Assembly (NCBI RefSeq): GCF_002995495.1
Contig: NZ_PVZV01000010.1
Coordinates: 1-64,000 of the forward strand
From: Actinocorallia populi
GTDB taxonomy: Bacteria > Actinomycetota > Actinomycetes > Streptosporangiales > Streptosporangiaceae
Length of the DNA: 64,000 bases
Reading direction: 5' to 3'
Shown: piece after piece, positions 3,398 to 53,304 of the stretch
Layout of the letters: each line of letters starts with the position of its first letter
Numbering within the stretch: the stretch's first letter is position 1
The notes under the pieces: model-generated
What the model was told of the DNA's origin: nothing
The model's input: the letters and a program-made list of their open reading frames with translations, nothing else
Database searches by the model: none
Position numbers and translations under genes: made by a program

Positions 3398-4216
3398 ATG
3401 TCCATCGATCTGTGGAACGACCTCCTCGCCTGCCTCGACCTCTCCCCTTCGCAGGCGGACGGCACCAGCGGCTACGAGGGCCGCAACCAGCGGCTGACCT
3501 ACCACCGCCTGTTCGGCGGCCAGCTCCTCGCCCAGTGCGTCCGCGCCGCCTCCCTCACCTGCCCCGACAAGGGCGTCAAGTCCCTGCACGTGCTGTTCCC
3601 CCGCGCGGGCTCCGCCGACGAGCCCGTCCGCTACGAGGTCGAACGCCACCACGAGGGAGGCACCTTCGCCACACTGGCCGTCACCGCCCGCCAGAGCCGC
3701 GGCGTCATCGCCACCGCCTCGGTCTCCCTGCACACGGCCGAGGACGGACGCGACCACCAGACGACCGCCGCCGTCCCCGCCGTACCGGGCGAAGAACACC
3801 GGGTCGACCTCGACCTCCTCCCCTGGGAGACGAGGACCACCGCCGACCTGGACTCCCCCAAGCCCGAGGCCCCCGAACTGGAGTTGTGGCTGCGCTCCCG
3901 GCCCCTCGAACACGACGCCGAGGCCCTGGCACCCGCCCTCACCGCCTACGCCACCGACCTCACCCTCATCGGCACCGCCCTGCGCCCCGTCGACGGCGTC
4001 TCCCAACGCGACGCCGGCACCGCCTTCATCTCGGCGGTGACCTCCCACACCCTGTGGTTCCACCGCCCCTTCCGCACCGACGCCTGGCTCCTGCTCCGCC
4101 AGCACAGCCCCCTCCTCGCCCACGGCCGCAGCTTCGGCCGCGGCGACGTCCTCACCGAAGACGGCTCCCTCGTCGCCTCCTACGCCCAGGAGGCCCTGCT
4201 CCGCTTCAAGGGCTGA
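3398..4216 (+). CDS. tesB: Acyl-CoA thioesterase II
   Basis: Hydrolyses acyl-CoA esters to free acid and CoA. It has the double-hotdog TesB architecture and usual length (272 aa). The first hotdog contains the FGGQLLAQ motif near residue 40. The second carries SHTLWFHRPFRTDAWLLL with the conserved Asp and ends with the family signature SYAQEALLRF containing the catalytic Gln. It is monocistronic, probably leaderless, and carries the regulon operator. Its job may be to release CoA when the beta-oxidation enzymes of the neighbouring operons stall on a branched or cyclic intermediate. That role is inference; the family assignment is firm. Confidence 0.93.
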   Translation: MSIDLWNDLLACLDLSPSQADGTSGYEGRNQRLTYHRLFGGQLLAQCVRAASLTCPDKGVKSLHVLFPRAGSADEPVRYEVERHHEGGTFATLAVTARQSRGVIATASVSLHTAEDGRDHQTTAAVPAVPGEEHRVDLDLLPWETRTTADLDSPKPEAPELELWLRSRPLEHDAEALAPALTAYATDLTLIGTALRPVDGVSQRDAGTAFISAVTSHTLWFHRPFRTDAWLLLRQHSPLLAHGRSFGRGDVLTEDGSLVASYAQEALLRFKG

Positions 4217-4300
4217 AGCCCTCCGCCGCCCCTTCACCGCGCGGCCCCTCGCCGCATGCGGGACCGCGCTCTCCGCAGCCCTCCCCCAAACCCCGAGCGA

Positions 4301-4313
4301 GGGGCTTCGCCCC
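4301..4313. terminator. Short hairpin GGGGC-TTC-GCCCC after the thioesterase gene
   Basis: Stem of 5 G:C pairs with a 3-nt loop, 85 nt after the tesB stop and without a U tract. It is a weak terminator candidate of the kind common in high-GC actinomycetes. Confidence 0.3.
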
Positions 4314-4357
4314 GCCTCCCGTCCGCTGTCACGCGACCAGCACCACGGCAGCGGGCG

Positions 4358-4627
4358 CTATCCGCCTTGCACGACCCGGCCCTGCGGAGTTCCGTAGTAC
4401 CAATGACGCCCGGCCGGAGCGGGAGGGAGCGCACCCGCGGCCAGACCGACCAGAGCCTCCGCCAACTCCACGAGCGAAGCGGCATCGACGTGCTCCGCAC
4501 CGCGCAGAAACCCGGTCGCGCTCTCCTCCAGCTCAGGCCAGGCCGATACTTCCTCCGCTCCGTTGAGGAGCAGAACCGGTCGTGCGCAGCGGCCCTGTCC
4601 ACCCGGCCGCCAAGTCTCACAAGAACC
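4358..4627 (-). pseudogene. 3' fragment of an unidentified gene
   Basis: On the minus strand an open frame without a usable start reads about 85 codons to a TAG at 4358-4360. It has protein-like composition (segments VLLLNGAEEVSAWPELEES and AGRHWYYGTPQGRVV). Its 5' end runs into the transposase-like remnant on the opposite strand, so it looks like the tail of a gene cut by an insertion. I do not recognise the family. The reading frame could still be chance in GC-rich DNA. Confidence 0.3.
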
Positions 4628-4719
4628 GGGCCTACCTGCGCAGACGCGGTATCAAGGTGACGATGACGGTGTCTGCGGACCAACGCGGCTGCACCGCTGT
4701 CTACAGGGCGGTCCAGTAG
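4597..4719 (+). pseudogene. IS5-type transposase remnant
   Basis: A frame ending at TAG 4717-4719 contains SHKNRAYLRRRGIK. This is very close to the (S)xKNRAYLRRRGI block that precedes the last catalytic residue in IS5-family DDE transposases. Only about 40 codons are recognisable and neither end nor inverted repeats are visible. The rest of the 682-bp gap (4217-4898) shows the gene fragment above and otherwise nothing I can assign. Confidence 0.5.
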
Positions 4720-4841
4720 CGGTGCTTGATGCCCGCGTCGGTGGTGCGAGCGTCCTCCAGGACGCCACCGTTGCGTTCGATGACGCGTGCCGACCCGATG
4801 AGGAATCGGCGTTCTTACCGCCAGGGCGGTACAGGTGGGTT

Positions 4842-4863
4842 TATCATGATCGACCCGATCGGG
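4842..4863 (+). promoter_or_regulatory. Candidate promoter and 10-bp palindrome before the 4899 gene
   Basis: TATCAT at 4842-4847 can serve as a -10. It is followed by the perfect palindrome CCCGATCGGG at 4854-4863, inside the would-be 5' leader. A ribosome-binding site GGGAAGGGCGG precedes the ATG at 4899. No convincing -35 was found. Confidence 0.35.
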
Positions 4864-4898
4864 TAGGCGATCTTCGTTTTTGACGGGAAGGGCGGCTG

Positions 4899-5555
4899 AT
4901 GGCCCAGGAGTTCCGCGACCTCGCGGGGAAGGCGGCCAAGGCCGTCGCGCAGCAGGCGCGGCAGCGCGGGGTGTTCCTCTCGCTGAGCGACGAGGAGATC
5001 GGGGCGTTCGTCTCCGGGGTGCTCGAGCCCGGCGAGCGGCTGGAGGTCTTCGCCGATCTCCGGCCGCATCCCGACTGTCCGAAGGTGCCGCGCAGGTCGC
5101 GGGTGCAGGACGGTTTCGGAGGCAGGTCGTCGGCCAGGAAGATGGCCGGGGCCGCGGTGTCGATCGCGGCGTTCGCCGCCGGGGAGTGGGAGCCCGACAG
5201 CCGCGCCCTGTTCTCGACGGCGCTGCACGGCGGGATGGACAGCCTGGCGGGGCGGCTCCGCGTCCAGTACGACCCGGAGACCAGCGGATGCGAGCACGTC
5301 CTGGCCGTGACGGACACGCGGCTGATGCTGGTCCGCATCCGCAGCGGAGTCGGCCGGAGGCTCGGGCCCTCCCTCGTTCCGTGGTGGGTCCGGCACGACC
5401 AGGTTCCGGCCTGCCGCCGCTACGACGAGGGGGACTTCGCCCTCGGCTTCGCCGACTCCTCCTGGATCCGGCTGCGCGGCGGCCTCGCCAGGAGGGGGGA
5501 GGCCGTCCGCGCCTGCTTCCCCGACGTCCCCGGGCCCTGGCCCGGCGACAGGTGA
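4899..5555 (+). CDS. Hypothetical protein
   Basis: A 218-aa protein of unknown function. It is probably soluble: one moderately hydrophobic Ala-rich stretch (MAGAAVSIAAFAAGEW, near residue 83) but no signal peptide. Two Gly/Arg-rich halves and a predicted beta-rich C-terminus (HVLAVTDTRLMLVRIR) recall small domains that read as PH- or SHOCT-like, but no motif is decisive. The start is supported by a strong GGGAAGGGCGG site 5-6 nt upstream. It stands alone, and a hairpin at about 5599-5618 may end it. Confidence 0.7.
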   Translation: MAQEFRDLAGKAAKAVAQQARQRGVFLSLSDEEIGAFVSGVLEPGERLEVFADLRPHPDCPKVPRRSRVQDGFGGRSSARKMAGAAVSIAAFAAGEWEPDSRALFSTALHGGMDSLAGRLRVQYDPETSGCEHVLAVTDTRLMLVRIRSGVGRRLGPSLVPWWVRHDQVPACRRYDEGDFALGFADSSWIRLRGGLARRGEAVRACFPDVPGPWPGDR

Positions 5556-5598
5556 TCCGGCCGGAACCGCACGGCGCGTTCTCGGGGAAGGGGTGTGA

Positions 5599-5618
5599 CC
5601 CGCTTCATAGCGGGGTCC
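5599..5618. terminator. Imperfect hairpin after the hypothetical gene
   Basis: ACCCGCT and AGCGGGGT can pair around TCAT with a one-base bulge, 44 nt past the stop at 5555 and before the flavoprotein gene. It could be a terminator or an operator. Confidence 0.3.
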
Positions 5619-5677
5619 TGTCATGGATCGGGCCGCTGTCTCGCTCAAGGGGCAAGCGAACAGACAGGAGCAAGAGC

Positions 5678-6856
5678 ATGAGGCACCGCATCGTCGTCCT
5701 CGGCGCCGGTTACGCCGGGGCCTACTCGGCCGGGGTCCTGGCCCGCCGCCTCGACCCCGCCGACACCGAGATCACCGTCGTCAACGCCGTGCCGGACTTC
5801 GTCGAGCGGCTGCGCCTCCACCAGCTCGCGGCCGGCCAGGACCTCAAGAAGCACCGGCTGGCCGACATCTTCGCCGGTACCGGGGTGCGGCTGCGCCTGG
5901 CGCGCGTCGAAGCGGTCGACGTCGCACGCAAGTCCGTCGTTCTGGACGACGGCGAGCTCTCCTACGACACCCTCCTCTACACGCTCGGCAGCACCGTCGC
6001 CGACCACGGCGTCCCCGGTGTCGCCGAGCACGCCTTCCACGTCACCGACCGGGCCGCGGCGCTGCGGCTGCGCGAACGCCTGGACGGCCTGGGCGAGGGC
6101 GGGCGCGTGCTGGTCGTGGGCGACGGCCTGACCGGCATCGAGACCGCCACCGAGATCGCCGAGTCGCGGCCCGGGCTGAAGGTGGCGCTGGCCGCCCGCG
6201 GCGAACCGGGCGACTGGCTCTCCCCCGGCGCCCGCCGCCACCTGCGCCAGGCCTTCGACCGCTTCGGCATCACCGTCCACGGGCACACGTCCGTCTCCCG
6301 CGTCGAGACGACGGGGGCGATCGGCGCCGACGGCACCGTCTTCGCGGCCGAGGCGACCGTGTGGTGCGGCGGGTTCGCCGTCCACCCCATCGCGGCGGAC
6401 AGCGGCCTCGAAGCCACCGCCACCGGCCAGATCGTCGTCGACGACACCATGCGCTCGGTCTCGCACCCCGACGTCTACGCCGCCGGTGACAGCGTCCACG
6501 TCATCGGCGAGAACGGCAGGCCGCTGCCGATGTCGTGCGCCTCGGCCGGTTTCACGAGCATGCAGGCGACCGGCGCGATCATCGGCCGCCTGACCGGCCG
6601 CAAGGTCCCGTCCACGGCGCTGAAGTACGTCGGCAACCACATCAGCCTCGGACGGCGCGACGCGATCTTCCAGATGGTCGACGGCGAGGCCCGTGCCAAG
6701 TCCTGGTTCCTGCGGGGCCGCGCCGCCGCGCACTTCAAGAGCGGCATCCTCAAGGGCTCCATCTGGAGCACGAACCACCCGACCTTCGGCATGCCGACCA
6801 GGAAGCACCGCCTGGCCGCCGCTCCCGAACGTTCCACCGCGGCGGCGGTCGCCTAA
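5678..6856 (+). CDS. NAD(P)/FAD-dependent oxidoreductase (NDH-2-like)
   Basis: A 392-aa two-dinucleotide-binding flavoprotein. The FAD-binding GxGxxG is at residues 8-14 (LGAGYAGAYSA), the NAD(P)-binding GxGxxG-like VVGDGLTGIETA lies near residue 150, and the C-terminal FAD signature HPDVYAAGDS near 270. The family includes type II NADH dehydrogenases and related quinone reductases. Here the electron acceptor is unknown. AGGAG sits 8 nt before the chosen ATG; longer upstream frames are not supported. The next gene, an ECF41-type sigma factor, follows after 10 nt. This is a pairing often seen in actinomycetes, suggesting the sigma factor controls the operon. Confidence 0.9.
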   Translation: MRHRIVVLGAGYAGAYSAGVLARRLDPADTEITVVNAVPDFVERLRLHQLAAGQDLKKHRLADIFAGTGVRLRLARVEAVDVARKSVVLDDGELSYDTLLYTLGSTVADHGVPGVAEHAFHVTDRAAALRLRERLDGLGEGGRVLVVGDGLTGIETATEIAESRPGLKVALAARGEPGDWLSPGARRHLRQAFDRFGITVHGHTSVSRVETTGAIGADGTVFAAEATVWCGGFAVHPIAADSGLEATATGQIVVDDTMRSVSHPDVYAAGDSVHVIGENGRPLPMSCASAGFTSMQATGAIIGRLTGRKVPSTALKYVGNHISLGRRDAIFQMVDGEARAKSWFLRGRAAAHFKSGILKGSIWSTNHPTFGMPTRKHRLAAAPERSTAAAVA

Positions 6857-6866
6857 GGTCGGCCGC

Positions 6867-7802
6867 ATGGACACCCTCGCCGTCGAGCGGTTCGAGGCCG
6901 GCCGGTCCCGGCTGGCCTCACTCGCGTACCGCCTGCTCGGCTCGGCCGCCGACGCCGAGGACGCCGTGCAGGACGCGTTCCTGCGCTGGGAGGCGGCCGA
7001 CCGCGACCGGATCGAGGTGCCGGAGGCATGGCTGACCAAGGTCGTCACCAACCTGTGCCTCGACCGGCTCCGCTCCGCGCAGGCGAGACACGAGCGCACG
7101 ACCGGGGTGTGGCTGCCCGAACCGCTCCTCGCCGGCGACCCGATGCTCGGCCCGGCCGACACCTTCGAGCAGCGCGAATCGGTGTCCCTGGCCGTGCTGA
7201 TCCTCATGGAGCGCCTCTCCCCCCACGAGCGCGCCGTCTACGTGCTGCGCGAGGCGTTCTCCCACAGCCACGCCGAGATCGCCGACATCCTCGGCATCAC
7301 CGAGTCCGCCAGCCAGCAGCACCTCCACCGCGCCCGGCGGCGCGTCGCCGCTCCGCGCCGCGACGACACCCCCGACGGCTCCGACGCGCGCCGGATCGTC
7401 AAGGCCTTCCTCGACGCCGCCGCCTCGGGCCGGACCGAACGGCTGATCGCGCTGCTCACCGAGGACGCGACCGCGGTCTCGGACGGCGCCGGACTCACCA
7501 GGAAGTTGCTGCACTTCCCCACCCCGGAGCGCGTGGCCGCCACCATACGGGGCGCGCTCAAACCGAGCGAGAGCAAACGGCGGCTGGCCGGCGGCTCCCC
7601 CGACCTGCACGCCGCCGTGGTCAACGGCTCCCCCGCCCTGATCGCCGTGCTCGACGACCGGGTGGTGGGCCTCGTCGTGTTCGGGACGCGCGACGGCAAG
7701 ATCGCCTCCGCCCACGGCCTGGCCTCCCCGCATCGTCTCGGCCGCCTCACCTCGGCGTGGACGAAGCGGGAACGCCCCGCGCCCCTCATCGAGTCCTGGT
7801 GA
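6867..7802 (+). CDS. sigJ: RNA polymerase sigma factor, SigJ/ECF41 type
   Basis: A 311-aa sigma factor. Region 2 (AYRLLGSAADAEDAVQDAFLRW) and region 4 (HAEIADILGITESASQQHLHRA) are followed by a SnoaL-like C-terminal domain of about 130 residues. That fusion defines the ECF41 group, where the extra domain tunes activity instead of an anti-sigma factor. The group's DGGG motif reads DGAG here, and the NPDKL-type tail motif is replaced by SPHRL. TAAGGT (6854-6859), which includes the stop codon of the preceding gene, lies 7 nt before the ATG and could make a leaderless sigma transcript. Confidence 0.88.
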   Translation: MDTLAVERFEAGRSRLASLAYRLLGSAADAEDAVQDAFLRWEAADRDRIEVPEAWLTKVVTNLCLDRLRSAQARHERTTGVWLPEPLLAGDPMLGPADTFEQRESVSLAVLILMERLSPHERAVYVLREAFSHSHAEIADILGITESASQQHLHRARRRVAAPRRDDTPDGSDARRIVKAFLDAAASGRTERLIALLTEDATAVSDGAGLTRKLLHFPTPERVAATIRGALKPSESKRRLAGGSPDLHAAVVNGSPALIAVLDDRVVGLVVFGTRDGKIASAHGLASPHRLGRLTSAWTKRERPAPLIESW

Positions 7803-44979: not shown

Positions 44980-46374
44980 GTGGACGACTCCTACCGCCCT
45001 CAGCCAATCCCCGGTATTCCTTCCGTAACCGATGAAGGCACCCCGCCGAAGCGCCGGTGGATAGGGACCGTAGTCGGCGTACTCGGCGCGATCGCAATGC
45101 TCGCTGCACTATTCGCGGTGCTGGGGCCGGGCGCAGCCTGGTGGGTCGAGCACGTCGACAAGGTCCCGCTTGATGGCAAGGACGCGGTCACCGGCAAGGA
45201 CCGCCAAGACGTGCTCGACAACGCCCGCGGCCGACTCGCCGGGATCGCAGCCGGGTTGCTCGCAGCAGCGGCAATCTTCTACACCGCGGCAAACGCGGCC
45301 TCAGCCCGCCGCACAGCCGAGGCCGCAGTTCGCAGCTCCGAAGCCTCTGAACGCACCACCCAGGCCGCCTTCCACAGCGCCGAAGCCTCCCAAGAAACTG
45401 CCCGCGCTGCCGTCCGCACCGCTGCTGCCACTGAACGTGGCCTGGTCACCGGCCGCTACACCGCCGCCATCGACCAGCTCGGCTCCGACAAACCAGCCGT
45501 CCAACTCGGCGGTGTTCACGCCTTGGCCGGCATCGCCGACGACGCACCCGACATGCGCCAGACCTGCATCGACGTTCTATGCTCCTACCTCCGCCTGCCC
45601 TATGACCCAGACCCTGGTGCCAACGGTGATCCCTCAGCCCGCAAGGCCTACCGAGCCTTTCGCGAAGTCCGCCACACCGTCATCCGCCTTATTGGCAACC
45701 GCCTCCGCCTGTCCTCAAACAACCCTCACTCCTGGCAAGGCAGCGACTTCGACTTCACCGATGTCATCTTCGACGGCGGCGATCTCCACAAGTCCGTCTT
45801 TTCCGGAGGCACCATCGACTTCAAGGGCGCGCAGTTCGCCAGCGGTACCGTCAACTTCGAAGAAGCGGAGTTCATTGACGGGTACGTCAGCTTCAAGGGC
45901 GCGCAGTTCACCGGCGGCACCCTCGACTTCACGGAGGCGAAATTCGCCGGCAGTGACATCAGCTTCGAGTTTGCGAAGTTCTTCGATGGCATTCTCAATT
46001 TCGAGTACGCAGAGTTCTCCGATGGAGAGGTTCAATTCTGGGATACAGAGTTCAGCGGAGGCCACATGAACTTCTCGTACATCAACCTCACAGGTGGCAT
46101 CCTCCATTTCTTGGGCGCGACCCTTAACGGCAACACCATCGACTTCAGAGACAGTCGGTTTTCTGATGGATCCATCTTCTTCGAGGATACAGAATTCGCC
46201 GACGGTACCGTCAGCTTCGATAATACGACACTCACTGGCGACACCATTTTCTTCAAAAATTCTGAACTCACCGGCGGCACCGTCGACTTCACCAATGCGA
46301 AATGTCAGCGGCCGCCATCATTTACCAGGCAAGATCTGGGTATACTACTGCCAACAGAATGGCATAACTCCTAG
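44980..46374 (+). CDS. Membrane-anchored protein with fourteen 12-residue repeats
   Basis: A 464-aa protein. Two transmembrane segments (about 30-52 and 88-105) are followed by an Ala/Ser-rich coiled-coil-like stretch (about 105-150) and a globular linker. Then come some 14 tandem 12-residue repeats (about 275-445) of pattern xGxhxFxxhxFx, for example GGTIDFKGAQFA. The pattern resembles pentapeptide-repeat beta-helices but has a 12-residue period. The start GTG at 44980 has a poor ribosome site. The second half is visibly richer in A/T than neighbouring genes, suggesting transfer. Function unknown. Confidence 0.82.
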   Translation: MDDSYRPQPIPGIPSVTDEGTPPKRRWIGTVVGVLGAIAMLAALFAVLGPGAAWWVEHVDKVPLDGKDAVTGKDRQDVLDNARGRLAGIAAGLLAAAAIFYTAANAASARRTAEAAVRSSEASERTTQAAFHSAEASQETARAAVRTAAATERGLVTGRYTAAIDQLGSDKPAVQLGGVHALAGIADDAPDMRQTCIDVLCSYLRLPYDPDPGANGDPSARKAYRAFREVRHTVIRLIGNRLRLSSNNPHSWQGSDFDFTDVIFDGGDLHKSVFSGGTIDFKGAQFASGTVNFEEAEFIDGYVSFKGAQFTGGTLDFTEAKFAGSDISFEFAKFFDGILNFEYAEFSDGEVQFWDTEFSGGHMNFSYINLTGGILHFLGATLNGNTIDFRDSRFSDGSIFFEDTEFADGTVSFDNTTLTGDTIFFKNSELTGGTVDFTNAKCQRPPSFTRQDLGILLPTEWHNS

Positions 46375-46396
46375 CAGCACAAAGAACACTCCTCTT

Positions 46397-46416
46397 TCCC
46401 ACTCCCTAAAGTGGGA
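46397..46416. terminator. Hairpin between convergent genes
   Basis: TCCCACT and AGTGGGA pair over 7 bp around CCCTAA, 23 nt after the repeat-protein stop and before the 3' end of the minus-strand kinase-like gene. Candidate bidirectional terminator. Confidence 0.55.
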
Positions 46417-46489
46417 GGATCAGGTAGCCCTTACCGAGGGTGGCTATTGGTTACGTAGCAACCGGTTGCCAGTGAGGCGGAGGTCATCT

Positions 46490-47401
46490 TCATCCCTCAG
46501 GCCTGAGCCCGGCACTCCCTTGAGGCGAACCGAGCCCATGGTGATGGGAAGTGCTCAGCAGATGCCGGACATGCGCTCTCACGTGAGGAGCGAGACGGGC
46601 ATGGACGGGGTCTCGGTCGGCTGCTTGCAGAAGGATCGCCGCCACGGTGATCTCGGCAAGCCGACCGTCTGGCGTGTCCAGGACATTCAAAAAGGTCTTC
46701 CGGACTTGTGCGGCCGTTTCCGGGACGGGCAGGGTGTAGGCGTGGAGATGCGCAGCATCGAAGCCGTGTGGGGCGGGGCCGAACCCTTCCCAGTCCAGGA
46801 TGGTGAGTTCAGGGCCGGTGAGGTTGGCCCAATGGAGATCTCCATGGGCCAACCCCCATCTCTGGACAGTGGTGTCGAGGCCTGTCTCACCGAGGTAGCG
46901 CGGGATGGTCCGATGAATGTAGTCCTGTGTGACGACGGGCTGACGGCCGTCGGGGACCGGCGTTGCGGCGACCACGTCGCAGGCACGCCGCAACTGGAAC
47001 CACCAGGTGTCAGGCAACGCTATGCGCTCGGTGAGATCGGGAGAAGGCGAGCAGGGAGGCTCTGGCACATACGAGCTGAGTTCGGCGCGGTAGGCGTACT
47101 CATGGCCTTTCCACTCGGCGGAACGAAGCAGTCGGGGCCTTGGGATCTCATCCGAGAGCACCGCGGCGGCCGTTTTCGTGCCGACCCAGAGTTTGCCGCC
47201 GGCTTTGCCCGCCGGGGCTTCCATCACACGAAGCCATGCGCGCCCGTGAGCGTCTTCAACCGGCATCCCGAGCGTTCTGCCGCCATGGCCCCAAGCCTCG
47301 GGCGTCCCGAAGACCGGAGCGCAGGTGAGTCGTGTCGCCGCGTCGGTGAAGGCGGCATGCATCCGGTCTCGTACAGCCGAATCATCAGGCTCGGAGAACA
47401 C
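46490..47401 (-). CDS. Aminoglycoside-phosphotransferase-like kinase fold protein
   Basis: A 303-aa protein with the catalytic motif HGDLHWANL and metal-binding DWEGFG of the APH/choline-kinase fold, so a small-molecule or peptide phosphotransferase is likely. GTG 47401 is chosen: GGGAGG lies 6-7 nt upstream and the gene then overlaps the aldo-keto reductase by 17 nt. The upstream frame extension has no support. Last gene of the four-gene set beginning with the 40-aa peptide. Confidence 0.8.
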   Translation of the reverse strand: MFSEPDDSAVRDRMHAAFTDAATRLTCAPVFGTPEAWGHGGRTLGMPVEDAHGRAWLRVMEAPAGKAGGKLWVGTKTAAAVLSDEIPRPRLLRSAEWKGHEYAYRAELSSYVPEPPCSPSPDLTERIALPDTWWFQLRRACDVVAATPVPDGRQPVVTQDYIHRTIPRYLGETGLDTTVQRWGLAHGDLHWANLTGPELTILDWEGFGPAPHGFDAAHLHAYTLPVPETAAQVRKTFLNVLDTPDGRLAEITVAAILLQAADRDPVHARLAPHVRAHVRHLLSTSHHHGLGSPQGSAGLRPEG

Positions 47402-48290
47402 GGCAGACCTCCCGGAGGTGGGGTGGTGTGATCGGTGGGCGGCGGAACGCTGTGAGAGCGTCCTGCCAGTGTGCCGTAGTCGAAGCTGAAAGCAGGGCAC
47501 CGGTGACACCCGGTGTGGAGGCCACCACGGACAGGGCCGCCACCACGGGGGACGAGCCGGGGCTGATCCGAGCGGCCAGATCTTCGGTGACCATGTCGGT
47601 GAGTTCGCCGCCACTCAGCGGCGCAGAAGCCCATACCTCGAGCCCGGCCTCGGCCGCCTGCGTGACAGGACCGGCGCTTCGGAGAGCTTCGGCGACCGGG
47701 CGGATGTGCACGAGACTCACGGGGAGCTGGATCGCCTTCAAGTGAAAGTCAGAACTTCCAGCAGCGTCTCGTGCTGCAGAGATCAGCTCTCGTACGGTGA
47801 ATGCGCCGTCGGTGAAGCCGCTCCAGGTGGCGATTCCGTAACCGGTGATCTGGCCAGCGTGGACGGACTGCTCGCAGACCTCGAATGCCCGAGCCATCTG
47901 GGTGAGGAGCCGAGCCCGATCATGATGGGCATCGTGTTCGGGGTTATGCAGGTAGAGGAGGTCGAGTCGTTTTCTGCGCAGCTCAGCGATATTGGCGGCG
48001 ATCCGATGGTCGATGTAGGCCGGGGATATGGAGTGGCATCGAGCCGCTTCCTGATCGGTGATGGTGCCCATACGCCGCGCGGTCTGAGCCTGCGTACGGG
48101 TCATGTGCCCAACCTTGGTGAAGACCCGTACCTCAGGATGGTGGGGCAGAATCCGAGCCAGTTGCTCATGTGCGGTTCCGTGAGCGTAGACGGGAGCCGT
48201 GTCGATGGCCGTGACACCGGCCGCGATGGCCACACGGGCGGCAACGGCCACGTCGCGACAGCGATACGTCCCCAAGCCGAGGGCGGTCAC
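47385..48290 (-). CDS. Aldo/keto reductase
   Basis: A 301-aa NADPH-dependent TIM-barrel reductase with the full catalytic tetrad: D30 and Y35 (AIDTAPVYAHG), K59 (VFTKVGH) and H115 (LLYLHNPE). It overlaps the oxygenase gene by 4 nt and the kinase-like gene by 17 nt, so it acts in the same pathway. The substrate is unknown; acting on a carbonyl produced by the oxygenase is a possibility. Confidence 0.9.
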   Translation of the reverse strand: MTALGLGTYRCRDVAVAARVAIAAGVTAIDTAPVYAHGTAHEQLARILPHHPEVRVFTKVGHMTRTQAQTARRMGTITDQEAARCHSISPAYIDHRIAANIAELRRKRLDLLYLHNPEHDAHHDRARLLTQMARAFEVCEQSVHAGQITGYGIATWSGFTDGAFTVRELISAARDAAGSSDFHLKAIQLPVSLVHIRPVAEALRSAGPVTQAAEAGLEVWASAPLSGGELTDMVTEDLAARISPGSSPVVAALSVVASTPGVTGALLSASTTAHWQDALTAFRRPPITPPHLREVCRVLRA

Positions 48291-49474
48291 CGTCGCTCTC
48301 CCACGGACAAGATCCCGGCATGCAGGAATTGACTGAGAAGGTCAGCGGCCTGTGCGGTGGTGATGTCCGAAGCCTGAGCGAGAACGCCGAGAACCTCTGA
48401 ACGGCCGGAGACAAGGATCTCCAGCAGGGGCTCCGCTCGGCATGCGAGCGACCAGCGCTGTCCAGCAGCTTCCAGCACCAGGTTCTCTCCCGAGCGTCTC
48501 ATGACCGCACGCGGAGCCGTCAGCGCGACCCGCAGATCGGGATCGGCTGGGAGCGTCTCGTGAACGGCGTGAGGCAGGCTGAAGCCGCCATGGACTCCAT
48601 AAGCGGAGTCTCTTGCAGTCAGGTACTTCTCGATCAGAGACGGGTCTCCGAGTCTCTCGGCCAGCAGCTCGGCGATGTCGTTCCGCCACATGGCGTCCGC
48701 GTGGTCGGCCGTGCGGGGAATGTCGGTGCGAATGATCTCGTGGGCGCGTAGTTCGTCGATCAGCCAGGCCAGCAGGTCGACTCCGGTGTGGGTGGTCAGT
48801 CCACAGGTCAGGTGAAGTGACGGCTGCCCGGTGGAGGCTGCGGCGGCGTGCCACCAGCCCCGTGGCACATGCAGGACGTCACCGGCGCGGAGAGTGAACT
48901 CGTCGATCGGCGTCGTGGGAGGGGCGTCGTCGAAGTCGACGTCCCGGTACAGCGGAGCCGGTCGGGTCGGGCCGTAGACCCGCCACCGTTTCGCTCCCGA
49001 GATCTGGATGACGATGACGTCGTGGTCGTCCCAATGAACGCCGAAGCCTTCCTTCGCGGTCCAGGAGGCGTAGGCGTTGACCTGGACACCGGTGCGCAAC
49101 TGCCGTTCCAGAGCGCTCACCAGGTCGCGGATCGGCGGGTGCATCTCCTCGATGGCGTCCAGCACCAGGGTCGCACCCTTCCGAAGTTGGGCGGACAGGA
49201 GGTGGGGCTGCGGGGCATGCCAGGGCTGCATGCGCCGGTACGTCCGCTGCTCGCAGTACTCCTCTACCCGGATGGTCTCTCCGCCGAGGGCGAGACGCAG
49301 CCGGGGCGGTTCCAGCCGATGGGTGTTGAGGATCTCGTTCAGTGCCGGCCAGGTCAGCAGGTCGGCGAATCGGTTCTGCTCCCCGGCGGGCGCGGAGAAG
49401 ACACGGTGGGCGCGGCCCAGGTCCTGGGCGAGGAACTCGTCCCCGCCCAGGACCTTGACGATCAGATCGGACAT
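48287..49474 (-). CDS. JmjC/cupin-4 family Fe(II)/2-oxoglutarate oxygenase
   Basis: A 395-aa protein. The double-stranded beta-helix core contains the iron triad H147-x-D149 (FGVHWDDHD) and H209 (VPRGWWHAA), plus the KRWRVY strand typical of the ribosomal-oxygenase/YcfD-like cupin group. A C-terminal winged-helix-like region of about 150 residues follows. Such enzymes hydroxylate amino-acid side chains of proteins or peptides. It starts 9 nt after the stop of a 40-codon gene and has no strong ribosome site of its own, so it is translationally coupled to the peptide, its possible substrate. Confidence 0.88.
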   Translation of the reverse strand: MSDLIVKVLGGDEFLAQDLGRAHRVFSAPAGEQNRFADLLTWPALNEILNTHRLEPPRLRLALGGETIRVEEYCEQRTYRRMQPWHAPQPHLLSAQLRKGATLVLDAIEEMHPPIRDLVSALERQLRTGVQVNAYASWTAKEGFGVHWDDHDVIVIQISGAKRWRVYGPTRPAPLYRDVDFDDAPPTTPIDEFTLRAGDVLHVPRGWWHAAAASTGQPSLHLTCGLTTHTGVDLLAWLIDELRAHEIIRTDIPRTADHADAMWRNDIAELLAERLGDPSLIEKYLTARDSAYGVHGGFSLPHAVHETLPADPDLRVALTAPRAVMRRSGENLVLEAAGQRWSLACRAEPLLEILVSGRSEVLGVLAQASDITTAQAADLLSQFLHAGILSVGERR

Positions 49475-49483
49475 TGTCGCTGA

Positions 49484-49606
49484 TCAGTTGTCGTTGAGGT
49501 CGGACTTGCCGGTGGACCCGCCGTCGGACGGCTGCGTGGCCCGGCCGCGCGCCGCCACGATCCTCTCCACGGCCACCACCAGGCCGCCGTTCGCCTCGCT
49601 GTTCAT
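49484..49606 (-). CDS. 40-residue peptide, candidate precursor of a modified peptide
   Basis: ATG 49606 is preceded by AAAGGAG at 6-nt spacing, the best ribosome site of the cluster. The peptide opens MNSEANGGLVVAVERIVAAR (possibly a leader helix) and ends in a Gly/Ser/Asp/Asn-rich stretch with GGSTGKSDLNDN. It has no Cys, so it is unlike lanthipeptides or sactipeptides; Asp, Asn, Arg and Lys are candidate hydroxylation sites for the adjacent JmjC/cupin enzyme. A longer in-frame start upstream is not needed. It could also be just a small regulatory protein. Confidence 0.6.
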   Translation of the reverse strand: MNSEANGGLVVAVERIVAARGRATQPSDGGSTGKSDLNDN

Positions 49607-49747
49607 CGCTGCTCCTTTCCACCGCACCGCCCCTGTGGCGGGCTCGGCATGCCCACACTCTGCGGTGTGCAGCACGGCCCGAACAGTGGCCGGGACCGTG
49701 CCCCGGTTCCGTGGACTCGGCCCACGGAGCCATCTCCTCGATCACCG

Positions 49748-49775
49748 TTGCGCTCCGTCCGGAGACCGCTACGCT
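49748..49775 (+). promoter_or_regulatory. Promoter of the HTH-SLOG gene
   Basis: TTGCGC (49748-49753) and TACGCT (49770-49775) are 16 bp apart, placing transcription start near 49782, about 30 nt before GTG 49813. Confidence 0.45.
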
Positions 49776-49812
49776 CTTGGTCGAGGCCATAGGCGAGCCG
49801 AAGGCGAACGAC

Positions 49813-50706
49813 GTGACCAGGCGCAGAATCTTCGATCCGGGAGCAGTCCCGATACGGTTCTGGCAGCGTGACGACGTCCAAGCATCCCTCGCGCACCGCG
49901 ATGTAGCGCAGTTGTTCCGCCTGTTCCTGGACGAGTTCTCCGAATGCACCCAGACCCAGCTCGCTCTGCTCACCCAGCATGACCGTTCGGACATCTCCAA
50001 CTGGGTACGCGGCATACGCCAAGGCCGCGTGTCCGACATCGAGGTGCTGATCCGCATAGCTGACGGGCTTCACATGCCCGACCAGGCCAGAGCCCTGTTC
50101 GGCCTCGCCCCGGTCGGTGCTGACGGACCAGAGCTCGTCTCCACCGGCCCTCGGCATCCGGAGGTCGGCCACGGTACGGGCCGCTCCGCCACCGTGCGGG
50201 CTCATGGGTCGGCGCATGTCGCCATCTGCGGCAGCCGGGCGCCGGACACCGAGGCCGGTGTGATCGACGTCGCCGTCCGCTGCCTCGCGCGGCTCGTCAT
50301 GAGCAGGGAGTACAAGGTCAGCCACGGACCGGTCGGCGTGGGCATCGAGGTCATGACCTACATCGCCGACCGCTACCGTCCACCGGGCTTCACCTTGGCG
50401 CTCGGGCTCTTCGGTCACCGCGCCGTCGTCCAGGACTCGGAGTTCGTCATCGTCGTCGGCGGTGCGGTCGGCACCCAGACCGAGATCGACCTCGCCCTGT
50501 CCATGAACAAGAAGATCATCCCGCTGCCGGGGAGCGGAGGAGCAGCCCGCCGCTTCTACCGCCAGGCGGCCGAAGACCGGCGTGCCCGCTCATGGATGGC
50601 CGACGAACACTTCGCCGCCCTCCACACATGCCACGATCCCGGAGAAGACTTCGCCCGGATCATCGAGCATCTGATCGACAACGACCCCGGAGTACCAAGT
50701 GACTGA
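49813..50706 (+). CDS. XRE-like HTH protein with SLOG (nucleotide-binding) domain
   Basis: A 297-aa fusion. A helix-turn-helix (residues about 28-95, TQTQLALLTQHDRSDISNWV) is followed by a SLOG-type Rossmann domain with AICGSRAP, VSHGPVGVG and the LOG-like loop VVGGAVGTQTEIDLAL. SLOG domains sense or hydrolyse nucleotide derivatives, so the protein may be a nucleotide-responsive regulator. GTG 49813 is preferred over GTG 49711 because a promoter maps between them. It overlaps the reductase gene by 8 nt. Confidence 0.78.
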   Translation: MTRRRIFDPGAVPIRFWQRDDVQASLAHRDVAQLFRLFLDEFSECTQTQLALLTQHDRSDISNWVRGIRQGRVSDIEVLIRIADGLHMPDQARALFGLAPVGADGPELVSTGPRHPEVGHGTGRSATVRAHGSAHVAICGSRAPDTEAGVIDVAVRCLARLVMSREYKVSHGPVGVGIEVMTYIADRYRPPGFTLALGLFGHRAVVQDSEFVIVVGGAVGTQTEIDLALSMNKKIIPLPGSGGAARRFYRQAAEDRRARSWMADEHFAALHTCHDPGEDFARIIEHLIDNDPGVPSD

Positions 50707-51400
50707 ACGCCCCTACGTCCTGCTGTCCTGCGCGTCCTCGATCGACGGCCACATCGACGACAACACCGAGGAACGGCTCCTGCTGTCCAACGACGAGGAC
50801 TTCGACCGCGTCGACGAGGTCCGGGCGACCTGCGACGCGATCCTCGTCGGCGCCAACACCATCCGCCGCGACAACCCCCGTCTGCTCGTCCGCGCGCAGG
50901 ATCGCCGCCAGAACCGTGTGACGCGCGGCCTGCCGGAGAGCCCGATCAAGGTCACTTTCACCAGCAGTGGCGATCTCGACCCTGAAGCCAAGTTCTTCAC
51001 CGCCGGAGATGTCGAGAAAATCGTGTACTGCCCCGACGCGGCCCTCGACAAGTGCCGAGACCGTCTCGGCGGCGTCGCCACCGTGGTGGGCGTCGGCGAG
51101 GCGGTCGGCTTGGAAACCGTGCTGGCGGATCTCGCTTCCCGGGGCATTCGCCGGTTGATGGTGGAGGGTGGCGGCACCGTCCACACCCAGTTCCTCACCG
51201 AGGGCCTCGCCGACGAGCTCCAGCTTGTGATCGCACCCTTCTTCGTCGGCGATGCCGACGCCCCCCGCTTCGTCGGCCCGGGTAGCTTCCCGCACCACTC
51301 CGGCAACCGGATGACCGTCGCCGAAGTGCGTCAGATCGGCGACGTCATCCTCGCCCGCTACCTTCTCCGGCGGCCGGACGAAGCGGGGACCGATCAGTAG
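50699..51400 (+). CDS. RibD C-terminal-like reductase (dihydrofolate-reductase fold)
   Basis: A 233-aa stand-alone RibD_C enzyme. The N-terminal strand YVLLSCASSIDGHID, ATCDAILVGANTIRRDNPRL and the late VEGGGTVHTQFLTEGLADEL are the family's NADPH and substrate motifs. RibD itself reduces a ribosylamino-pyrimidine; paralogues work in nucleoside or cofactor pathways. Coupling to a SLOG protein hints at nucleotide-type chemistry. Its 3' end overlaps the next convergent gene by 7 nt. Confidence 0.87.
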   Translation: MTERPYVLLSCASSIDGHIDDNTEERLLLSNDEDFDRVDEVRATCDAILVGANTIRRDNPRLLVRAQDRRQNRVTRGLPESPIKVTFTSSGDLDPEAKFFTAGDVEKIVYCPDAALDKCRDRLGGVATVVGVGEAVGLETVLADLASRGIRRLMVEGGGTVHTQFLTEGLADELQLVIAPFFVGDADAPRFVGPGSFPHHSGNRMTVAEVRQIGDVILARYLLRRPDEAGTDQ

Positions 51401-51780
51401 GCCACGTTGAAGGTGACGCCGAGCCTTCCGTCGGGGAGGCGCTGCCAGTCCCATTCCTTGGCGAGCAGGTCGAGCAGCCACAGTCCTCGGCCGTCTTCCG
51501 CGTCGTCGGGGCGCGCGAGCGCCACCAGCGATGCGGGGCCGCCTCCGGCGTCGACGACTCGCACGTGAACGGACCGCTCCGAGAGCTCAGCCGTGATTTC
51601 GACCGTTCCGCCTTCCTCCCGGGAGCGGCTGTGGGTGCAGGAATTGGTGAAGGTCTCGGACAACAGGAGCACGGTGGTGTCGGTGGCGGGGTGGTCCTCT
51701 CCCAGCCAGGCGGCCAGCCAGCGCCTCGCCTCGGACACCTGGTCCGGGGTGCCGGGGAAGACGGCGGACACCCGGCTCAT
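51394..51780 (-). CDS. ATP-binding protein, anti-sigma-like HATPase
   Basis: A 128-aa GHKL ATPase domain of the RsbW/SpoIIAB type widespread in actinomycetes: LLLSETFTNSCTHS (N box), VVDAGGGPASL (G1) and GRGLWLLDLLAKEW (G2). It starts at ATG 51780, coupled to the preceding DUF gene by ATGA. It probably binds an anti-sigma antagonist or acts as a serine kinase; the partner is unknown. Confidence 0.87.
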   Translation of the reverse strand: MSRVSAVFPGTPDQVSEARRWLAAWLGEDHPATDTTVLLLSETFTNSCTHSRSREEGGTVEITAELSERSVHVRVVDAGGGPASLVALARPDDAEDGRGLWLLDLLAKEWDWQRLPDGRLGVTFNVAY

Positions 51781-52058
51781 CCCGTCACCGTCCGGGCGAT
51801 GCGCGCGGCGGCCTCGTCCGGGTGGCGGGCCTCGACGCGTTCTCTTCCCCAGGCGTAGATCCATCCGTCTGGGTGTCGCACCGCTCTGACGCAGAGGCCG
51901 CCCTGCGGGGGAGACGTTCGGTCCACCCACAGGACCGCGCCGCCGGACAGCTGGTCGACCAGCGCGGTGCTGCAGCCGTACTCGCCGAGTCGGCTGCCCA
52001 GCTCGGCGAGGAGGTACGAGCGGACCGTGTCCGAGGGAAGAATTCGTGGTCGCGTCAT
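51777..52058 (-). CDS. Small actinobacterial protein of unknown function
   Basis: A 93-aa soluble protein (SDTVRSYLLAELGSRLGEYG, GWIYAWGRERVEARHPDEAA) encoded directly before, and coupled to, the anti-sigma-like ATPase. Proteins of this look often sit beside HATPase/XRE/DUF397 sets in actinomycetes. ATG 52058 is chosen; a frame up to 52190 exists but adds unsupported residues. Confidence 0.72.
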   Translation of the reverse strand: MTRPRILPSDTVRSYLLAELGSRLGEYGCSTALVDQLSGGAVLWVDRTSPPQGGLCVRAVRHPDGWIYAWGRERVEARHPDEAAARIARTVTG

Positions 52059-52288
52059 CACCGTTCCAGAAAACGTCGTCGGTGCGGCCGGTCCGAGAAG
52101 TCGCGGAGTTTCCGATCTGCCGCATGATTCGTTCGGCCAAGCTGCTGATCTGCCTGACCAGGCTCGCAGTCGGGAACTACGGTGAGCCATGAACCGGTGA
52201 CACCCCTGCGTCGCTCCGCCTTCGAACGGCCGTCAACCGCGAGGCAGAGGTTTTCACCCACGTGCCGTGGTGGAAATGAAAGGCCCCC

Positions 52289-53110
52289 ATGCCTCGACGT
52301 AAGGAGATGAAGGCGGATTCCCTTCGCAGCTATTTCGGTGCGAAGCTCCGACGCCGCCGCGAAGCCCTCGGGTTCTCCCTCGAACGGCTCTCGACCGAGC
52401 TCGGTTACACGCCCCAGTGGATCCACAAGATGGAGACCACCGACAAGGCCGTCCCCGCGAAGTTCGCCGAGGACGTCGCGACCTACTTCGAAGACCCCGA
52501 GTTCGTCGAGGTCCACGACGCGATCCGGCGGGCCGGACGCCTGGCGTACCTCCCGCGCGGCTTTCCGCAGTTCATCGAGCTGGAGAACGAGGCGACCTCC
52601 ATCAGGGCCTACGTCGTGCAGGTCGTCCCCGGGCTCCTGCAGACCAAGGAGTACGCCACAGCCGTGATGAGCGCGGGCCAAGCCCTTGAAGCGCTGGAGG
52701 AGATCGTGGCCGCACGTATGGAACGTCAGTCCATCCTGCGCCGGGCTCCGTTCACCCAGTTCCAGTTCGTGATCAACGAAGCGGCGCTGCGCACGCCGGT
52801 GGGCGGTGGCGACGTGATGCGGGAGCAACTCCAGCGACTCATCGACATCACCTGCCTGCCGAACATCCAGATACGGATCCTGCCGTTCTCTTCGGTCACC
52901 TACGCGGCACTGGACGGCCTGTTCACCGTCCTCGGCTTCGAGGACGGAACAGAGACCGCCTACCTTGAAGGACCCGAGGCGTCCCAGGTGATCGAAGATC
53001 CGAAATTGATCGCGAGATTCGCCGTGAGGTTCGGCATCATCATGGGTGAAGCGCTTCCCCGGTCCGCTTCCCTCGATCTGCTCGCGCAATATCTGAAGGA
53101 GTACACATGA
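52289..53110 (+). CDS. XRE-family regulator with DUF5753-type domain
   Basis: A 273-aa protein with an N-terminal XRE HTH (LRRRREALGFSLERLSTELG and YTPQWIHKME) and a C-terminal DUF5753-like domain (VVPGLLQTKEYA, RMERQSILRR, QIRILPFSS). It is the actinobacterial partner of DUF397 proteins, here encoded next with a 4-nt overlap. GAAAGG is 5-6 nt before ATG 52289. Such pairs control development or antibiotic genes in streptomycetes. Confidence 0.93.
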   Translation: MPRRKEMKADSLRSYFGAKLRRRREALGFSLERLSTELGYTPQWIHKMETTDKAVPAKFAEDVATYFEDPEFVEVHDAIRRAGRLAYLPRGFPQFIELENEATSIRAYVVQVVPGLLQTKEYATAVMSAGQALEALEEIVAARMERQSILRRAPFTQFQFVINEAALRTPVGGGDVMREQLQRLIDITCLPNIQIRILPFSSVTYAALDGLFTVLGFEDGTETAYLEGPEASQVIEDPKLIARFAVRFGIIMGEALPRSASLDLLAQYLKEYT

Positions 53111-53304
53111 TCGAACCCACTCCCTCTGCCGCGAACTGGCGCAAGAGTAGCTACAGCGGGCAGGGCGGACAGGACTGCGTCGAGGTGGCCGATCTGGCCC
53201 CGGTGATCGCCGTGCGCGACTCCAAGAACCCCGGCAGAGCGCCCCTGGCATTCTCCCGGAGCGCGTGGGCTGCGTTCTCCACACGGCTCAAGAGCGGGCT
53301 CTGA
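53107..53304 (+). CDS. DUF397 domain protein
   Basis: A 65-aa protein with the diagnostic pattern NWRKSSYSGQGGQDCVEVA, VIAVRDSKNP and a terminal FSRSAWAAF. These small proteins act with the upstream XRE/DUF5753 regulator, probably as its antagonist. Overlap ATGA with the preceding gene. Confidence 0.95.
   Translation: MIEPTPSAANWRKSSYSGQGGQDCVEVADLAPVIAVRDSKNPGRAPLAFSRSAWAAFSTRLKSGL

Follow-up and report, generated by a model that had tools for sequence, protein, structure and literature searches.

A four-gene actinomycete operon that probably makes a modified ribosomal peptide

An operon of four minus-strand genes on an Actinocorallia populi contig (NZ_PVZV01000010.1, positions 1 to 64,000; this whole 64,000-nucleotide stretch is called the window below) is probably a self-contained cassette, so far undescribed, for a modified peptide of the ribosomally synthesized and post-translationally modified (RiPP) type. 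Read from 49606 to 46490, this one overlapping operon encodes a 40-residue peptide, a JmjC/cupin oxygenase, an aldo-keto reductase (AKR) and an APH-fold kinase. The initial annotation of this DNA had proposed a modified-peptide cluster, and that is still the best reading, with a gene order that recurs among other soil actinomycetes, in part on their plasmids, and a peptide tail that is conserved.

Four closely packed genes

49484..49606, minus strand: gene for a 40-aa precursor-like peptide, with leader LVVAVERIVAARGR and tail QPSDGGSTGKSDLNDN; the frame is kept in relatives
49612..49617, minus strand: ribosome site AAGGAG of the peptide gene, read from the sequence
48287..49474, minus strand: JmjC_2/cupin 2-oxoglutarate oxygenase, 395 aa, from Pfam, fold and invariant residues
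48302..48532, minus strand: C-terminal winged-helix domain of the oxygenase, residues ~315-391, from the model and ROXA-like_wH matches
47385..48290, minus strand: AKR, 301 aa, from Pfam and invariant D30, Y35, K59 and H115
46490..47401, minus strand: APH-fold kinase, 303 aa, with the revised start GTG at 47401, from alignment, Pfam APH in relatives and fold search

The peptide gene begins with the ATG at 49606 and encodes MNSEANGGLVVAVERIVAARGRATQPSDGGSTGKSDLNDN. Whereas it has its own ribosome site, none was seen for the oxygenase in the nine bases (TCAGCGACA) between the peptide stop codon and the oxygenase ATG, as had been noted from the start, and translation of the two genes is likely coupled. 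The oxygenase and AKR genes overlap by 4 nt (GTGA), the AKR and kinase genes by 17 nt with the revised kinase start. The coordinates and frames first assigned to the four genes were correct, as was the placing of the kinase after an overlapping AKR, but the kinase open reading frame (ORF) then listed, with GTG at 47614 and 374 aa, appears too long. We moved the start to the GTG at 47401, probably the true one, because the alignment with relatives begins there (start codons in the relatives were picked by script near the match). A promoter and terminator scan of 46300-49800 found nothing. The source genome, of 8.25 Mb, holds a single match to the oxygenase at E 1e-20.

The gene set recurs in genomes and on plasmids

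A scan of the GTDB species collection with the oxygenase gave a first sample of 79 loci (loci and genomes are cited by our L and G numbers). The peptide frame lies directly upstream of the oxygenase in 40/40 of loci L033-L072, whose oxygenases are 42-74% identical to that of the window, the nearest being from Actinomadura barringtoniae at 74%; 38 of these peptides were found by tblastn, and those of L055 and L070 by reading. The AKR and kinase follow in 38 of the 40, and the other two, L069 and L070, break off within the oxygenase (L102 represents the second half of the L069 genome). The other 38 loci (L073-L101 and L103-L111), mostly 34-41% identical, gave no match to the window AKR or kinase.

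We took a second sample from the genus of G478, a genome that shares an identical oxygenase with Streptomyces aureus. At E 1e-60 the oxygenase had 42 matches in 37 of 295 genomes. Among the best 30 of the 42 matches the peptide was present in 30/30, in 20 by a strict motif and in 10 by reading, as the variant SD[NV][TS]GG[KR][ST]DxND. It was also seen in five of eight lower matches (L188, L189, L190, L195 and L196) and not seen in L187, L191 and L192. Searches in the reverse direction gave the same linkage: all 11 places found with the peptide in 60 genomes of the Actinomadura-like genus of G037 lie beside an oxygenase, as do 25 of 26 places found with the AKR in 199 genomes of the genus of G478 (the exception is G542:C24). 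JmjC matches of any kind at E 1e-20 were found in 109/297 genomes of the GTDB family and 34/396 of the phylum, and are mostly of the distant kind.

The oxygenase also matches 145 plasmid records at E 1e-5, 39 of them over at least 80% of its length; the plasmid matches listed include distant JmjC proteins of other genera. Eight plasmid regions were opened, six with all four genes and two decayed. The complete copies have the peptide annotated only as hypothetical, and that of L144 was found by reading. The decayed copies, L147 and L148 on Streptomyces plasmids, keep the peptide beside oxygenase matches of ~87 and 276 residues, with transposases nearby. Separately, in G753 the oxygenase occurs at C1:22138-23079 and again at 8477931-8478872, two symmetrical sites close to the ends of a contig of 8,501,012 bases, an arrangement like that of terminal inverted repeats.

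The initial annotation had named loss of the peptide frame in relatives with the oxygenase gene as one refutation of its proposal, and had suggested a search for the order peptide-oxygenase-AKR-kinase elsewhere. All 40 loci of L033-L072 keep the frame, and the order recurs in other genomes. We conclude that the four genes belong together, as a short conserved precursor gene linked to modifying enzymes, which is what characterizes a RiPP locus.

The peptide has a nearly constant tail

The peptide frame is present in Thermomonosporaceae, Nocardiopsidaceae and Streptomycetaceae. A C-terminal alignment of 35 distinct peptides, without L054, shows G-7, D-4, N-2 and D-1 to be invariant; S-13, D-12, G-11, G-10, L-31 and R-20 are found in 33/35, and R-18 in 32/35. 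The residues after N-D, none to five in number, vary freely. Of the two possibilities raised earlier for the tail, conserved or hypervariable, the first therefore holds and the second does not: it is conserved, down to its ending ...D-x-N-D. The strict tail motif appeared in 0/6000 random sequences. Over the last 34 codons the ratio of nonsynonymous to synonymous substitution rates (dN/dS) was 0.33 in 9 Actinomadura-type, 0.48 in 12 Nocardiopsis-type and 0.60 in 16 Streptomyces-type sequences (sets without L054, L055, L067 and L072), with the tail lower than the leader in two of the three groups and slightly higher in Actinomadura. Frame conservation, dN/dS and the rare tail motif together are more than chance. 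NCBIfam has no named family for the peptide, and Pfam gave no match for that of the window and two chance-level matches for six relatives. The window peptide lacks Cys; L010 and L153 are the only loci whose peptides were seen to have it.

A constant tail is also what would be expected if the cassette made a small, non-peptide-like metabolite from the peptide, as for pyrroloquinoline quinone (PQQ) or mycofactocin, with host proteases doing the cutting, and the lack of any conserved dedicated protease or exporter fits this too. To our knowledge, though, the cassette enzymes are not of a type found in PQQ- or mycofactocin-like cofactor pathways, and we consider such a product improbable. That the peptide is instead a regulatory leader ORF, controlling translation of the oxygenase and not serving as a substrate, would suit its small size, its place directly upstream and the missing ribosome site of the window oxygenase. 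However, the dN/dS values indicate selection on amino acids, the spacing between peptide and oxygenase ranges over 2-22 nt in 36 measured loci while the tail stays constant, and 46300-49800 contains no terminator-like site; a leader ORF is thus very unlikely.

The oxygenase combines a JmjC domain with a winged helix

The oxygenase matches Pfam JmjC_2 at E 6e-29. H147, D149, H209 and K162 are invariant in 35 oxygenases, distant ones included, which gives the H-x-D...H metal triad plus Lys of JmjC ribosomal-oxygenase-like enzymes; we take K162 to be the Lys for 2-oxoglutarate. Its structural model (mean predicted local distance difference test score, pLDDT, 93) matched the folds of NO66, MINA53 and YcfD, the last an arginyl hydroxylase, at 15-19% identity in the fold alignments. 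The modelled C-terminal domain is of bbb-aaa type, with strands at 324-344 and then three helices, in the order seen in RiPP recognition elements (RREs). Among 34 aligned oxygenases, 6 match Pfam ROXA-like_wH at E 1 or better, and because of these matches the winged helix seems to have been inherited from ribosomal oxygenases; it may since have been turned to leader binding.

These likenesses raise the alternative that the enzyme belongs to the ribosomal oxygenases and has a ribosomal protein as its substrate, with the peptide, AKR and kinase in another pathway. NO66, MINA53 and YcfD are indeed its closest solved folds, and it shares with them the JmjC_2 catalytic domain, the winged-helix C-terminus and the metal residues. 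It differs from them in its linkage to a peptide gene, found in both search directions, and in a distribution that is patchy (the 37/295 genomes above) and partly plasmid-borne; two relatives also lie near RiPP genes. We regard a ribosomal substrate as highly improbable.

In Nocardiopsis sp. CNT312 (L050 5995-8064) the oxygenase and AKR share one open frame of 689 aa, as they do in G241:C24. The CNT312 frame, from one genome, is possibly a natural fusion or could be a sequencing slip.

Oxygenase and kinase look like the core pair

For the AKR, Pfam gave Aldo_ket_red at E 2.5e-20. It gave nothing for the window kinase itself, but APH was matched at E 0.1 or better by 14 of 24 aligned kinases, and the kinase model retrieved APH-fold kinases in a fold search; the catalytic H-x-D and the metal D residues of that fold are both present. 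Searched by sequence, solved structures included no relative for the AKR profile at E 1e-10 and none for the kinase profile at E 0.1. The catalytic residues singled out in the initial annotation are all present: H147/D149/H209 of the oxygenase, D30/Y35/K59/H115 of the AKR and HGD/DWE of the kinase are conserved in 35, 24 and 28 relatives. The four AKR residues are invariant in all 24 AKRs, and H-x-D and D-x-E in all 28 kinases, with HGD changed to HAD in two plasmid rows.

Three genomes (L187, L188 and L189) have oxygenase and kinase side by side with no AKR match, and the peptide was read in L188 and L189. In a tree of oxygenases, built without L050, L047, L071, L102 and rows <250 aa, cassette oxygenases lie on one side of a 100/97 branch, joined by one stray long-branch row, L192 (the long branches L192, L191, L077 and L193 are unsurely placed). 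L187 (entered as L114), L188 and L189 form one group nested inside the Streptomyces cassettes, and a single loss of the AKR is therefore probable. Because these three genomes lack only the AKR, oxygenase and kinase look like the core pair.

L193, outside the cassette group, has an oxygenase and AKR, a different peptide and no kinase match. L191 and L192 have distantly related oxygenases and gave no AKR or kinase match; the former (G907) lies near a lantibiotic dehydratase and a metallo-beta-lactamase-like gene, the latter (G890) near TfuA and nitroreductase genes. Loci L074-L111 represent a sister JmjC group, mostly from Nocardiopsidaceae, with no match to the window AKR or kinase. These have another constant peptide of 35-38 aa, ~MDPIEVEVEDLAEVTSRDITAGGDSDGTDSSSDFI, ending SSDF[IV] and encoded about 60-170 nt upstream of the JmjC gene (e.g. 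L090 ~3503-7122), and a gene of the prolyl oligopeptidase family, identified in L090, lies upstream in 30/38 loci analysed.

Comparison with known peptide pathways

The initial annotation could name no RiPP class with exactly this gene set, and we found none in open-access full texts (subscription papers were outside the scope), which contained no description of the cassette and none of five peptide strings. Single elements do have precedents. In the excerpted account of the biphenomycin pathway (PMC12707348), BipG is a JmjC ornithine gamma-hydroxylase that acts on a side chain of a RiPP precursor, a parallel to the JmjC oxygenase of the cassette. The same account has biphenomycins needing an MNIO (multinuclear non-heme iron-dependent oxidative enzyme), a B12 radical SAM enzyme, an arginase and a TldD-type protease, none of which is among the four genes, and names no AKR or kinase. 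CaoK, from the class V lanthipeptide cacaoidin, is described in the consulted part of PMC9486802 as an APH-like kinase that phosphorylates Ser/Thr of the precursor; the class shares such a kinase with the cassette, but there it is paired with the lyase CaoY. The four genes include no HopA1-like lyase, and no further gene shared by the loci resembles one, although no profile search for it was made. No lanthionine is expected, because the four genes include no lyase and the window peptide no Cys.

Bregman et al. 2025 describe JmjC proteins (PF08007) fused to RRE-like bbb-aaa domains, with bacterial homologs in RiPP-like contexts, and the cassette oxygenase has this combination of JmjC and bbb-aaa domains; the abstract and sections 6 and 7 of that paper (PMC12710340) name no such class, peptide, AKR or kinase. 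A 2026 preprint (PMC13060819) reports that PesHI forms beta-hydroxyaspartate in a RiPP, at the residue preceding its C-terminal former Asn.

A proposed pathway and the points against it

From the genes, their coupling, conservation and co-occurrence, the intact active sites and the predicted folds, all of which are shown here, we infer the substrate, the sites, the order of steps and the product. The peptide would be made first. Its leader half (L...I.AxRxR) would be bound by the C-terminal winged helix of the JmjC enzyme, which resembles an RRE, and the JmjC domain would hydroxylate at least one invariant Asp or Asn of the tail D...D-x-N-D, most likely at the beta carbon. The kinase would add phosphate to the peptide, either at a conserved Ser/Thr or at the newly formed hydroxyl, with S-13 and T/S-8 as candidate sites. 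In most lineages the AKR would add an optional redox step, an oxidation or a reduction, and cutting and export would fall to host functions.

This scheme modifies the earlier one in two respects. Asp and Asn are still the favoured side chains and Arg is possible, but Lys, also suggested at first, was dropped as an unlikely target because its position in the tail is K, R or V in the 35 peptides. Hydroxylation followed by redox or phosphorylation is now only one possible order, since the three genomes without AKR keep oxygenase and kinase.

Several points weigh against this cassette reading. A tail this constant is unusual for many RiPP families. None of the Ser/Thr positions is kept throughout: two plasmid peptides have Gly for S-13, and position -8 is Cys in L010 and Gly in the SD[NV][TS]GG[KR][ST]DxND variants, which have Thr/Ser at -9 instead. 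The near-invariant Arg residues at -20 and -18, in the leader half, are also possible hydroxylation targets. A winged helix is found in oxygenases of ribosomal proteins as well and need not bind a leader, and the kinase could act on a small molecule, like other APH-fold enzymes. L187 has oxygenase and kinase with no peptide recognised. L073 combines an oxygenase of 48% identity (over residues 3-285) with a different peptide; it gave no match to AKR or kinase, and its place in the tree is outside the cassette group. Neither a protease nor an exporter was found among the genes common to the loci or constant in the plasmid regions, although not all RiPPs require them.

Neighbouring genes and possible regulators

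49711..50706, plus strand: divergent gene, a candidate regulator, with an HTH-like (helix-turn-helix) region seen by eye and a weak SLOG-type match below the Pfam cut-off

The place of this SLOG-type gene is kept in five further loci, all of the Actinomadura type. HTH_31 was found in 20 of 68 upstream versus 2 of 58 downstream proteins (Fisher p 1e-4); these counts are of proteins, not loci, with at most two per side and locus, each of at least 140 aa by a rough ORF rule, and two long proteins dropped from 70 upstream. The HTH_31 genes differ in type (DUF5753, TPR; SLOG in Actinomadura). RRNPP-type signalling would call for a TPR regulator to which the peptide binds; HTH/TPR genes stand upstream in part of the loci and are of several unrelated kinds. 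A link to regulators is suggestive only, given that related loci are not independent and the regulators not orthologous.

After the SLOG gene, 50699-51400 of the window holds a RibD_C-type reductase gene, and Actinomadura-type loci retain both genes upstream of their cassette. A DUF5753 HTH regulator, a DUF397 protein and a HATPase_c_2 protein are encoded together at 51394-53304; HTH relatives occur in 18/40 and HATPase relatives in 11/40 clustered stretches. On the other side, a pentapeptide-repeat protein (44980-46374) is encoded directly past the kinase gene on the opposite strand. A defence system was considered and rejected, the four proteins having no PADLOC match at E 0.01.

Significance

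Given how little the tail differs among three actinomycete families, the cassette probably yields a single compound directed at a fixed target, for example a signal, rather than a diversifying antibiotic. We view as unlikely the further proposal of a new RiPP class with hydroxylated Asp/Asn and a stable phosphate and without lanthionine, made by a JmjC enzyme and an APH-fold kinase with an optional AKR, whose product would be a signal, intracellular or exchanged, read by neighbouring HTH regulators and carried among actinomycetes by plasmids.

Should the cassette reading be true, the RiPPs would gain a class whose defining enzymes are a JmjC oxygenase and an APH-fold kinase working with no lyase. 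The four genes are small and recurrent in many genomes and plasmids. Across three families the core is nearly constant, which points to a conserved actinomycete function, not to the product of an arms race.

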